NCBI GenBank assembly: GCA_017622845.1
Contig: JAGAQJ010000040.1
Coordinates: 1 to 54,900 of the forward strand
Direction of reading: 5' to 3'
Source: Lachnospiraceae bacterium
Lineage (GTDB): Bacteria; Bacillota; Clostridia; Lachnospirales; Lachnospiraceae
DNA length: 54,900 nt
Shown: piece after piece, positions 5 through 5,175 of the stretch
Layout: each line of letters starts with the position of its first letter
Position numbering within the stretch: position 1 is the stretch's first letter
The notes under the pieces: model-generated
The model's input: the letters and a program-made list of their open reading frames with translations, nothing else
Told to the model about the DNA's origin: nothing
The model's database searches: none
Translations under genes and position numbers: made by a program

Positions 5-236
5 GAAGGGCAGCAGTTCTATGCCGGAACAGGCTGGCGGAGAATGCTGATATTTTCTTATGGGTGATTCGATACATCAGCGAAAATCCGCACGGATGCG
101 GATTTAGGACGAAACGCGTCCATGGACGGCGCGTAGAGTCTGGTCGCGGACGGTTTTGAAAGCTTGTGGCATCACCCATTAGAAAATTCGCATTTGGAGT
201 CCAATCGCCTGTACTGGCATAGAACTGACGCCCTTC
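5..236. repeat. Interspersed element with terminal inverted repeats (copy A)
   Basis: A noncoding stretch bounded by near-identical inverted ends: left arm 5-25 and right arm 216-236 match at 19 of 21 positions when one is reverse-complemented (core CAGTTCTATGCC). The reverse complement of the right part (about 181-236) resembles 43928-43975, so the same family recurs about 44 kb away in the opposite orientation. No ORF of note lies inside. It could be a small nonautonomous mobile element or an intergenic RNA-hairpin repeat. The left edge is close to the window start, so the true boundary may lie outside. Confidence 0.5.
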
Positions 237-2807: not shown

Positions 2808-2983
2808 GCGCAAACCGCGCAGAGAAATGATACTGCTGAAACGTTATGCACGCTGCGCGGTGAGCAGCGGCAAAGACGATTCCTTCTGTATCATAAAGCG
2901 TCAGAAAATTCAGAAAATACTATACATAATAACTGATAGAAGATGTTTAAAGTGACAGTATTTAGAAAAATTAGATTAAGCTA

Positions 2984-3012
2984 TTGCAATTTGGGAAACG
3001 AAGTGTTACTAT
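2984..3012 (+). promoter_or_regulatory. Promoter of large noncoding RNA copy 1
   Basis: TTGCAA (2984-2989), a 17-bp spacer, then TACTAT (3007-3012), predicting a start near 3019. The second copy has the same arrangement with an identical -35 and a changed -10, so promoter function has been conserved while the spacer sequence drifted. The AT-rich block 2905-2939 upstream may act as an UP element. Confidence 0.7.
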
Positions 3013-3221
3013 AAAATCACATCAAGGGAAGAGAGAAAATAAAAGCAGCACAGTATAGAAGCTTTTATAAAGCATTTGAAATAGATACAAATGCAGAGTT
3101 CGGAAACCGGTAACCAATCGCGATAGAGGGTATGCTTAAGAAAGGAGATGAGTCCCTTGGCACATTTAGAAACCTGAATCTGATGAGAAGAAAACCCTTA
3201 ATAGATGAAATAATCAAAGAA

Positions 3222-3462
3222 AGCAGCTATTGAAACAGCAGAAGCGAATCGAATAAAAGGTCTGTGAAAACAGCATAGAAAGTCGAAGAAAGAAGCTGTG
3301 AAAACGGCATAGCAAATCGAATAAAGAAGCTGTGAAAACAGTATAGTAAATCGAATAAAAAGCTGTGAAAACAGCAGAACAAATCGAATAAAAGGTCTGT
3401 GAAAACAGCAAAGCGAATCGAATGAAAAGGCTGTCAGAATAGCAGAGCAGATTAAATTAAGC
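3222..3462 (+). repeat. Seven-unit stem-loop repeat array in ncRNA copy 1
   Basis: Units begin near 3224, 3259, 3293, 3327, 3360, 3393 and 3429 (period 33-36). Each has a short stem-loop, typically GCTGT-GAAA-ACAGC with a GNRA-type tetraloop, then a linker like AGCAAATCGAATAAAGA. Stem changes are often pair-preserving: ACGGC or ACAGT on the 3' side gives wobble pairs, and the last unit has GCTGT-CAGA-ATAGC. The array is noncoding, and because it has no unique spacers it is not CRISPR. Confidence 0.75.
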
Positions 3463-3578
3463 AGAGTATTTCAGATAAATCATTAGAGGATAGGAAGAGA
3501 AGGATTTACCAAAACAAATTATCAGATGTCGGATTAGAAATCTGGGAAAGAGGAAAAATTGGATAACGAATTTCATTA

Positions 3579-3633
3579 GAGCGGTCATCGTATCATTCAA
3601 ATAAGAAGGTATGATGACCGCTCCTGATTTTTT
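3579..3633 (+). terminator. Terminator of ncRNA copy 1
   Basis: A 16-bp stem (3579-3594 with 3608-3623; outer arms GAGCGGTCAT and ATGACCGCTC) is followed by a six-T run at 3628-3633. Compared with copy 2, the ninth pair changes from A-T to G-C on both sides and two more pairs move between Watson-Crick and G-U, so pairing is conserved. Confidence 0.85.
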
Positions 3634-3782
3634 CAGATGTACATGTTGGGGACTGCCGCATCATCATAATAGCATAAAGGCTTATGCGACCATGAATTAT
3701 CTGAAAATTCAGAAAATACTATACATAATAACTGATAAAAACTGTCTAAAACGACAGTATTTGGAAAAATTAGCATAAACTG

Positions 3783-3811
3783 TTGCAATCAGTCGAAAAG
3801 AGTGTTATCAT
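3783..3811 (+). promoter_or_regulatory. Promoter of large noncoding RNA copy 2
   Basis: TTGCAA (3783-3788), a 17-bp spacer and TATCAT (3806-3811). The spacer differs from copy 1 at many positions while both hexamers remain near consensus. Predicted start near 3818. Confidence 0.7.
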
Positions 3812-4032
3812 ACAATTACACCAAGGAAATGCAGAAAGACACAAAAGGATAAATGCATCAAAGTACAAAAGAGCTTTTATAAAGCATTTGAGATAGATGC
3901 AAATGCAGTCTTTGGCAGCAGGTGGTCAATTACAATCAGAGGTATGCATAAGAAAGGAGATGGGTCCCTTGGCACACTTAGAAACCTGAATCTAATGAAA
4001 AGAAATCCCTTAATATAAATAAGAAGATAAAA

Positions 4033-4135
4033 AGCAGCTATTCAAACAGCAAAACAAATCGAAAGAAGCAGATGCCGGACAGCAGAGCAAATCGAAAGAA
4101 GCAGTTATCGGGATAGCAGGGCAGATTGAATTAAG
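4033..4135 (+). repeat. Three-unit stem-loop repeat array in ncRNA copy 2
   Basis: Units begin near 4033, 4067 and 4100. Linkers (CAAATCGAAAGAAGC) match those of copy 1, while stems differ: the last is GTTAT-CGGG-ATAGC and the middle one is poorly paired. Variation in unit number between the copies indicates repeat expansion or contraction. Confidence 0.7.
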
Positions 4136-4251
4136 CAGTGCATTTCGGAAAAGTCATTAGAGGATAGGAAGAAGTAAGCTGTACGAAAAAGATTAAAAAA
4201 TATCGGATAAGAATCCGGGAAAGAGAAAAAATTGGATAACGAATTTCATTA

Positions 4252-4302
4252 GAGCGGTCGTTGTATCATTCAAAGAAGAAGGTATGGCGACCGCTCGTTT
4301 TT
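4252..4302 (+). terminator. Terminator of ncRNA copy 2
   Basis: The stem pairs 4252-4267 with 4281-4296 (outer arms GAGCGGTCG and CGACCGCTC, then G-U and A-T pairs), followed by TTTTT at 4298-4302. It is homologous to the copy 1 terminator, with pair-preserving substitutions. Confidence 0.85.
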
Positions 4303-4495: not shown

Positions 4496-5068
4496 ATGGC
4501 ACAGGTATATTTTACAAGGCACGGACAGACAATATGGAATGTTGAGAATAAAATCTGCGGTGCTACAGATATAGCACTGACACAGCTTGGCTATGAGCAG
4601 GCACGGGCGCTCGGGCAGAAAATCGCAGAGGAGAAGCTCAAAATTGATGAAATATTGTATTCTCCGCTTATCAGGGCAAGAGATACAGCGCTTGAGATTG
4701 CTAAGATTGCGCAAATTCCTGCACGAGAGGAGCTTCGCCTTAAGGAGCAGAATTTCGGCAGGTATGAGTCGACAGCAAGAGACGGCGCAGAGTTTCAGGA
4801 GGCAAAAAAGTGCTTTGTCAATCACTTTGGCGGCGGAGAGACGATGCTGCATCTGGCGCAGCGCATTTATAATCTTCTTGATGAGATTAAGGCGGAGTCG
4901 GAACAAAAAACGTATCTTTTAGTAGCGCATAACGGCATTGCCAGAGTGGTACATTCCTATTTTTATGATATGACAAATGAGGAGTATTCTGCATTCGGCA
5001 TCAAAAATTGTGAGATACGGGAATACCGGTTTGCGGCTTGCGATGGACAGGAGCCAAATGAAAAATGA
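4496..5068 (+). CDS. Histidine phosphatase (phosphoglycerate mutase-like) family protein
   Basis: A 190-residue single-domain member of the histidine phosphatase superfamily. The catalytic RHG motif is at residues 8-10 (FTRHGQT), the second histidine is His145 in LLVAHNGIA, and the segment YSPLIRARDTA is the usual phosphate pocket. Such enzymes dephosphorylate small metabolites such as sugar phosphates, phosphoglycerate or alpha-ribazole phosphate; the substrate cannot be read from sequence. It is predicted cytoplasmic. The ribosome site is weak (AAAGAAG). The 3' end of the gene has been tandemly duplicated, placing a second copy of the last codons in the noncoding sequence beyond the stop. 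Confidence 0.85.
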   Translation: MAQVYFTRHGQTIWNVENKICGATDIALTQLGYEQARALGQKIAEEKLKIDEILYSPLIRARDTALEIAKIAQIPAREELRLKEQNFGRYESTARDGAEFQEAKKCFVNHFGGGETMLHLAQRIYNLLDEIKAESEQKTYLLVAHNGIARVVHSYFYDMTNEEYSAFGIKNCEIREYRFAACDGQEPNEK

Positions 5069-5153
5069 TGAGCCATGGGAATAATGTTATCGGATTGCGG
5101 CAGGAGCCAAATGAAAATGATGAGCCATGGGAATAATAGTTATCAGATTGCGG
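5048..5153 (+). repeat. 53-bp tandem duplication across a gene end
   Basis: The segment 5048-5100, starting CAGGAGCCAAATGAAA and including the phosphatase stop codon, is repeated at 5101-5153 with small indels and one substitution. It is a local duplication with no evident function. Confidence 0.75.
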
Positions 5154-5175
5154 CAGGCGAATAAATGACATGAAA

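Follow-up and report, generated by a model that had tools for sequence, protein, structure and literature searches.

We report what is almost certainly a new class of large structured RNA in the Lachnospiraceae, found in a 54,900-nucleotide stretch of DNA from a member of this family (hereafter, the window). Positions 2905-4302 of the window carry two RNA genes, arranged head to tail, which can be aligned with each other from end to end and gave BLAST pieces with 78% and 79% identity. Comparison with copies in other genomes shows an RNA of about 380 to 960 nt (aligned copies, predicted ends), with a predicted promoter and a predicted terminator of its own, and retained by selection on its fold; a genome has one copy of it or, sometimes, two. 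As an RNA family the class is new; as a kind, it joins the large ornate RNAs. Its job is probably tied to protein synthesis. A preliminary description of this DNA had proposed a tandem pair of large structured RNAs, and the proposal stands: both units are present and alignable, relatives are found across the family, and compensatory changes fit the fold. The parts of the two genes are collected in the table.

Table. Features of the two RNA genes, in window positions
Feature	Copy	Positions	Strand	Remarks
Upstream element	1	2905-2938	+	AAAATTCAGAAAATAC...ATAACTGATA; the identical 34 bases precede copy 2
Upstream element	2	3704-3737	+	Identical 34 bases as in copy 1
Promoter	1	2984-3012	+	TTGCAA-N17-TACTAT; conserved in relatives; absent from consensus scan list
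Promoter	2	3783-3811	+	TTGCAA-N17-TATCAT; conserved in relatives; listed by consensus scan
RNA	1	3018-3635	+	About 610 nt; start and end predicted
RNA	2	3817-4302	+	About 485 nt; start and end predicted
Hairpin CATTTG...CAAATG	1	3073-3093	+	In the predicted fold of copy 1; also in one subgroup of relatives
Possible hairpin CATTTG...CAAATG	2	3885-3905	+	From sequence; absent from the minimum-energy fold of copy 2
Core	1	3141-3160	+	AAAGGAG (Shine-Dalgarno-like), GTCC, TTGG
Core	2	3953-3972	+	AAAGGAG, GTCC, TTGG
Possible 6-codon frame TTG...TGA	1	3157-3177	+	Putative
Possible 6-codon frame TTG...TGA	2	3969-3989	+	Putative
Long-range core helix, 5' strand	1	3190-3201	+	GAAAACCCTTAA; partner 3455-3472
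Core helix, 5' strand	2	4002-4013	+	GAAATCCCTTAA; partner 4129-4146
Core helix, 3' strand	1	3455-3472	+	AATTAAGCAGAGTATTTC
Core helix, 3' strand	2	4129-4146	+	AATTAAGCAGTGCATTTC
Post-core pairing strand	1	3481-3497	+	CATTAGAGGATAGGAAG with CCTGAATCTGATG
Post-core pairing strand	2	4155-4171	+	CATTAGAGGATAGGAAG with CCTGAATCTAATG
Repeat array	1	3233-3449	+	Minisatellite-like, 6.4 units of about 34 bases, GCTGT-GAAA-ACAGC hairpins; absent from copy 2
Terminator hairpin	1	3579-3623	+	16-bp stem
Terminator hairpin	2	4252-4296	+	16-bp stem

A promoter of the form TTGCAA-N17-TAYYAT had been claimed for each unit, and both were found. By consensus they are weak, as the scan returned that of copy 2 only, with 9 promoter-like sites against 5.8 ± 2.2 expected by chance. 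We consider them credible because they and the upstream element are conserved in the majority of 29 aligned same-genus copies; a sequence similar to the upstream element was seen 5' of most of these copies (alignment A4, in which L026 is poorly aligned). The conserved element 5' of the promoters (2901-2965 and 3700-3765), likewise present upstream of same-genus copies (A4), has CAGAAAATTCAGAAAA, ATAACTGA and ACAGTATT and looks as if it were bound by a regulator; LytTR- or Spo0A-like sites may be candidates. At the other end, the 16-bp terminator stem, for which compensatory change between the copies had been noted, is kept in 28 of 28 aligned copies, with compensatory change at 7 of the 16 pairs; two pairs do not form in every copy, one being broken in 5 of the 28 and the other in 1. 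Both terminators are missing from the list of the terminator scan, which allows loops of at most 8 bases.

One part of the preliminary description did not hold beyond the window. The long-range helix near the 5' end (CAAGGGA/TCCCTTG) can form in both window copies, but is not conserved among same-genus copies. It has 8 bp in copy 1, matched by 1 of 200 shuffles, and 6 bp in copy 2, matched by 23 of 200; among the other same-genus copies, the search pattern missed L004, and the best helix in the remaining 23 had 3 to 5 bp, with between 44 and 200 of the 200 shuffles doing as well. The predicted transcripts are more stable than their shuffles, with folding-energy z values of -9.0 for copy 1 and -3.1 for copy 2. 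The repeat array of copy 1 sits in a region that is variable among relatives. In the window, the gene has been duplicated and copy 1 has acquired its array of GAAA-loop hairpins. Elsewhere in the window (5048-5157), the 3' end of a histidine phosphatase gene contains about two copies of a 53-base unit (94% match).

All 4227 Rfam 15 models were run with cmscan on the window and, at gathering score, on 19 relatives; the two units and a pair of relatives were also searched with a looser limit, E up to 10. The sole match in the whole window was to the TwoAYGGAY RNA at 35-202, and none fell in either unit. The TwoAYGGAY RNA (RF01731, 88.5 bits, + strand) lies upstream of a GH127 beta-L-arabinofuranosidase gene (506-2536). 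At E up to 10, the stretch with both units returned weak chance rows only; the 19 relatives had no match at gathering score, and the two relatives searched at E up to 10 gave only unrelated weak rows. A known family was rejected for the RNA, the best weak row (E 0.33) being to an unrelated microRNA family. The preliminary description had left the choice between a known large class and a new one, and it is the second branch that holds. A literature search, with most subscription journals outside its scope, found no recognisable description of the RNA; the thousands of candidate structured RNAs from human microbiomes reported in one study could include fragments of it (PMC8040213). That the units hold no credible protein gene, as noted earlier, was borne out by the reading frames. 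On the + strand, the longest frames in the predicted window transcripts had 33 and 30 codons; on the - strand, they had 65 and 32. Across 46 aligned transcripts, the longest frame ranged from 12 to 80 codons (+ strand) and from 14 to 131 (- strand), with no consistent pattern.

Looking across relatives, as had been suggested, we found by DNA search copies of the RNA in 27 of 35 other genomes of the same genus; the tally for near relatives, 29/60, also counts the genome of the window itself and a 35-base scrap from a different family. Two covariance models were used for wider searches. Of 348 genomes of the bacterial family, R1, a model of the 3' block built on the window genus alone, matched 38; one of these is the window's own genome, in which it found both window copies and no other. 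R3, a model of the GURAAGAA hairpin block, which is largely lost in the window genus, matched 44 of the 348 and missed the window's own copies. The union of the two is 57 genomes. Both models match 25, and in 21 of these the R1 and R3 matches lie on the same contig and strand, within about 0.6 kb; some weak matches may be false, because G164, G195, G204 and G207 have R1 and R3 matches on different contigs. The remaining 291 family genomes had no match at strict filters, through absence or through model weakness. When R3 alone was used on a sample of 391 genomes of the class, at least 16 of them inside the family, a single match was obtained, in a genome of the family. A 3'-block pattern detected 46 loci in named genomes, nearly all in Lachnospiraceae, Blautia, Lactonifactor, Fusicatenibacter and similar; carriers include the cultured Blautia hansenii, Lactonifactor longoviformis and [Clostridium] fimetarium. 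Among the Lachnospiraceae loci are also two from metagenome bins assigned to Bacteroides (L081) and Rhodospirillaceae (L095), the contigs of which are probably misbinned. Of ten loci matched by R3 and not by R1, 5 have the AGGAGG...TCC-NTGG core, in a constant position 220-231 nt 5' of the hairpin. Two exact patterns had 0 matches in viral contigs, and a search of plasmids and phages with the Blautia hansenii copy (L080) found nothing; a mobile origin was rejected on these results. Side-by-side duplication is not general among carriers. Three same-genus genomes (G006, G012 and G031) each match the RNA in two different places, and G358:C24:101977-105406 (L105 and L128; taken as [Clostridium] fimetarium) holds two copies about 2.8 kb apart.

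The copies fall into three lineage types (Blautia, third and window) with a common order of parts. The Blautia type (780-964 nt) has a TTGACA/TATAAT-like promoter. There follow, in order, a hairpin with GACGAGAAATC, AAGGAGG-NNN-AGTCC-N-(A/T)TGG, CAATATGARAGTGGTA, CATATTGAAYANNTACCACA, a GURAAGAA-loop hairpin, GAAACTTTC, AATTGAATA and the terminator. The third type (612-778 nt) follows this order too, and its CCTCCG precedes the terminator by some 40-45 nt; in 12 third-type-like loci, some of them cut by contig ends, AGGAGG was seen in 9, CCTCC in 9 and both in 7. The window type is shorter (379-680 nt), with the core helices CCU-AUCUGA/UUAGA-AGG and GAAAUCCCUUAA/UUAAG...AUUUC. L017 and L026/L104, from the window genus, bear Blautia-type motifs and form a bridge between the types.

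Covariation supports three lineage-specific folds, with compensatory change present in excess of shuffles. For the window type, 93.5% of cells were paired over 47 pairs in 26 copies, and 18 pairs were changed on both sides, against 10.1 ± 1.6 in shuffled alignments and 6 to 12 when slid. The Blautia-type alignment (A5) comprises 13 of 14 located transcripts of a hand-picked lineage (L083 is the same locus as L037), and the third-type alignment (A8) comprises 7 of the 12 third-type-like loci inspected. Over 170 pairs in A5 and 92 in A8, the percentages paired were 96.2% and 92.7%, figures inflated by a filter applied before the count, which discarded helices shorter than 4 bp or with under 85% of their cells paired. 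With structures derived from those same alignments, 37 pairs in A5 were changed on both sides (14.7 ± 2.5 shuffled, 6 to 12 slid), as were 32 in A8 (14.9 ± 2.7 shuffled, 3 to 11 slid). The GURAAGAA hairpin was analysed in 32 of 38 segments (A7), the other six being near-duplicates. Its covariation score was 0.560 against 0.209 ± 0.021 for shuffles, and 78 cells showed compensatory change against 22.5; the 11 pairs changed on both sides (8.4 ± 1.3 shuffled) were reached by 19 of 500 shuffles, and the other four measures by 0 of 500. Alignments A2, A3 and A6 were made without L029, which is too divergent, and without L030, a 35-base scrap of promoter that comes from a different family; A2 and A6 also lack the too divergent L017 and L026. 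The covariation figures are strong, and they are not independent probabilities because the shuffles ignore relatedness and the helices were picked on the same alignments.

The constant centre of the RNA is a Shine-Dalgarno-like AAGGAG(G), followed by UCC-N-(U/A/G)UGG. The 3' tail of 16S rRNA could pair with AAGGAG(G). A pattern search found 55 distinct sites with AGG(A/G)G, and in all of them an NTG stands 8 to 10 bases further on (the pattern allowed 5 to 12); the first base of this start-like triplet, in these pattern-positive loci, is T in 35, A in 18, G in 2 and C in 0. Our reading, for which we see roughly even chances, is that the RNA acts in trans and contacts the translation-initiation machinery via a masked Shine-Dalgarno element.

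The element is predicted to be paired in the consensus fold of all three types. In the Blautia type, the pairing is GGAGGUUU/AAACUUUC, and the first five pairs of the element with ACUUUC are present in 13 of 13 rows. In the third type, it is GGAGG/CCUCC, the CCUCC being an exact anti-Shine-Dalgarno sequence; this helix is formed in full in 6 of 7 rows and by four pairs in L139, and it was picked by unconstrained RNAalifold in two third-type alignments. In the window type, a local GGA/UCC hairpin is paired in 98.7% of cells. The duplexes of the element with its own partner had -4.38 kcal/mol, compared with -3.71 kcal/mol for permuted partners (p 0.011; the partners were picked by eye from the alignment). 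Within one lineage, the helix shows no covariation in A5, and 2 of 5 pairs covary in A8, from rows that are misplaced by a base in a second alignment. Pairing in each of the three folds is also what would be expected if the RNA were purely structural or catalytic and AGGAGG a mere helix strand, with no ribosome link. The NUGG also fits a small UCC-NNU-GGA hairpin, so that the start-like triplet may be structural, and the lack of a conserved peptide (see below) agrees with this. We nevertheless think this explanation unlikely, as the AGGAG letters are constant while the partner varies (ACUUUC, CCUCC or UCC), and the spacing of 8 to 10 nt to UUG, AUG or GUG is kept at all 55 sites found with the pattern. 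In addition, in the 13 rows of A5 the G.U pairs at two positions of the element never become G-C, and these letters look as if they were held for another reason. That the letters persist while the partners change suggests a second reader, for which the 16S tail would be the obvious candidate.

A short frame could in principle be what the element serves. Frames from the start-like triplet have 2 to 18 codons in 54 of the 55 sites, and over 30 in one. The frame of the window copies would encode (M)AHLET, and that of the Blautia type often includes QYESG; a conserved peptide was rejected because the short frames at the 55 sites share none. Those of L055, L101 and L104 stop after three codons, yet these copies keep CAATATGAAAGTGGTA, the letters of which are thus probably kept for the RNA. 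The L107 copy has two successive mini-frames, seen by eye about 570 bases 5' of its terminator block; each has a Shine-Dalgarno sequence and AUG, and the second is of only two codons. RNAIII of Staphylococcus aureus is a dual-function regulator, which both codes for a peptide and pairs with Shine-Dalgarno sequences. A regulator of this sort would make a short peptide and pair with the Shine-Dalgarno sites of target mRNAs via CCUCC, ACUUUC and UCCCUU, and would account for the RNA's own promoter with its upstream element, the Shine-Dalgarno sequence plus short frame, and the pyrimidine-rich motifs resembling anti-Shine-Dalgarno sequences. Against it stand the very short frames with no peptide in common, some ending after three codons, and the ability of the pyrimidine motifs to pair within the RNA itself; we regard it as quite improbable.

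If the RNA does contact the initiation machinery, it would act there in trans, as an RNA or as an RNA-protein particle. Its AAGGAG(G) would be masked by a helix whose partner is lineage-specific (ACUUUC in the Blautia type, CCUCC in the third type and UCC in the window type). The masked element may be a sensor or a docking site for 30S subunits, or for a protein dealing with Shine-Dalgarno duplexes, for example bS21; its engagement would open the long-range fold, and the remainder of the RNA would change state. As the short peptides are not conserved, it is docking, rather than a peptide, that would matter. A bS21 gene was found in 19 of 20 RNA-bearing genomes (carriers only), which is compatible with the idea and is not support for it. 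Only the draft genome of the window itself (G000) had no bS21 match. Its csrA match was also weak (6.6e-15, against about 1e-25 in most same-genus relatives); this genome may be incomplete. A more specific form, which we put forward tentatively and think somewhat unlikely, is that the RNA is a widespread and hitherto undescribed machine of gut Lachnospiraceae, with both a Shine-Dalgarno element and its own anti-Shine-Dalgarno sequence, that senses free 30S subunits or bS21 as a bistable device, and an independently evolved counterpart of the translation link of OLE RNA.

CsrB is a sponge for the RNA-binding protein CsrA, and the new RNA could be another, with GGA motifs in loops. Its sequence is GGA-rich by eye, and csrA is present in 24 of 30 near relatives (12 of those 30 being from other families of the order); only 8 of 30 R1-positive genomes (30 of the 38 were tested), however, have the gene. 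On gene presence we rejected this very improbable explanation, which is close to refuted as a general function.

The genomic neighbourhood differs between the types. A terminator-like hairpin (2767-2807) lies between the RNA pair of the window and the GH127 gene upstream. Of 33 loci in named genomes that are not of the window type, 25 are followed by a pseudouridine synthase gene (PF00849) and 14 have an aconitase-family gene upstream within the locus. The neighbours at 13 window-type loci include a GH127 enzyme, a PTS EIIC protein or a histidine phosphatase, and some, read from their sequence, are presumably GlgC/GlgD-like proteins. In the third type, a different gene follows in 3 of the 4 loci examined here. 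A cis-acting leader of the downstream gene would fit the recurrent pseudouridine synthase, but the RNA ends in its own terminator and the changing neighbours in other lineages contradict cis-regulation, which we rejected as having hardly any chance of being correct. A fold that is kept amid differing neighbourhoods is as expected of a trans-acting RNA.

The classes of large structured RNA in bacteria are few. Like RNAs of the RNAIII or VR-RNA type, the new RNA has its own promoter, a length of several hundred nt, a short frame and pyrimidine-rich motifs resembling anti-Shine-Dalgarno sequences; it differs from them in having no conserved peptide. The raiA RNA is likewise a structured RNA of Clostridia, and the new RNA has no match to the raiA model; in the accessible part of one report, raiA RNA has 205 nt, with one from C. 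acetobutylicum (PMC12286853). ROOL and GOLLD resemble the new RNA in size and complexity, and again no Rfam model matches. The same source places GOLLD and ROOL in phages and prophages in the part seen (PMC12286853), whereas the new RNA had no matches in viral contigs (two exact patterns) or in plasmids and phages (L080 copy) and has conserved neighbours in 25 of 33 loci. In that part, and in abstracts, OLE, ROOL and GOLLD are still described as being without settled biochemical roles (PMC12286853). The new RNA is found in common gut bacteria, including cultured and named species, and is thus testable.

The closest comparison is with OLE RNA (RF01071), which is also large and ornate, also occurs in Bacillota, and forms a complex with Oap proteins and bS21. 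RF01071 matched neither the window nor 19 relatives at gathering score, and with E raised to 10 the units and two relatives gave no OLE match either; an OLE search of the family genomes gave 0 of 348, with control genomes equally silent. According to the accessible text of one study, the P6 element of OLE RNA is a mimic of a Shine-Dalgarno/anti-Shine-Dalgarno duplex that is bound by bS21 (PMC12054373), so that a masked Shine-Dalgarno design has a precedent. In the new RNA, the corresponding duplex is predicted to be GGAGG/CCUCC in the third type, and weaker, with ACUUUC and UCC as the partners, in the Blautia and window types. The masked element is a checkable hypothesis; it would make the new RNA a second candidate, beside OLE, for an internal Shine-Dalgarno/anti-Shine-Dalgarno duplex in a large RNA, and it bears on why large RNAs touch the translation apparatus.
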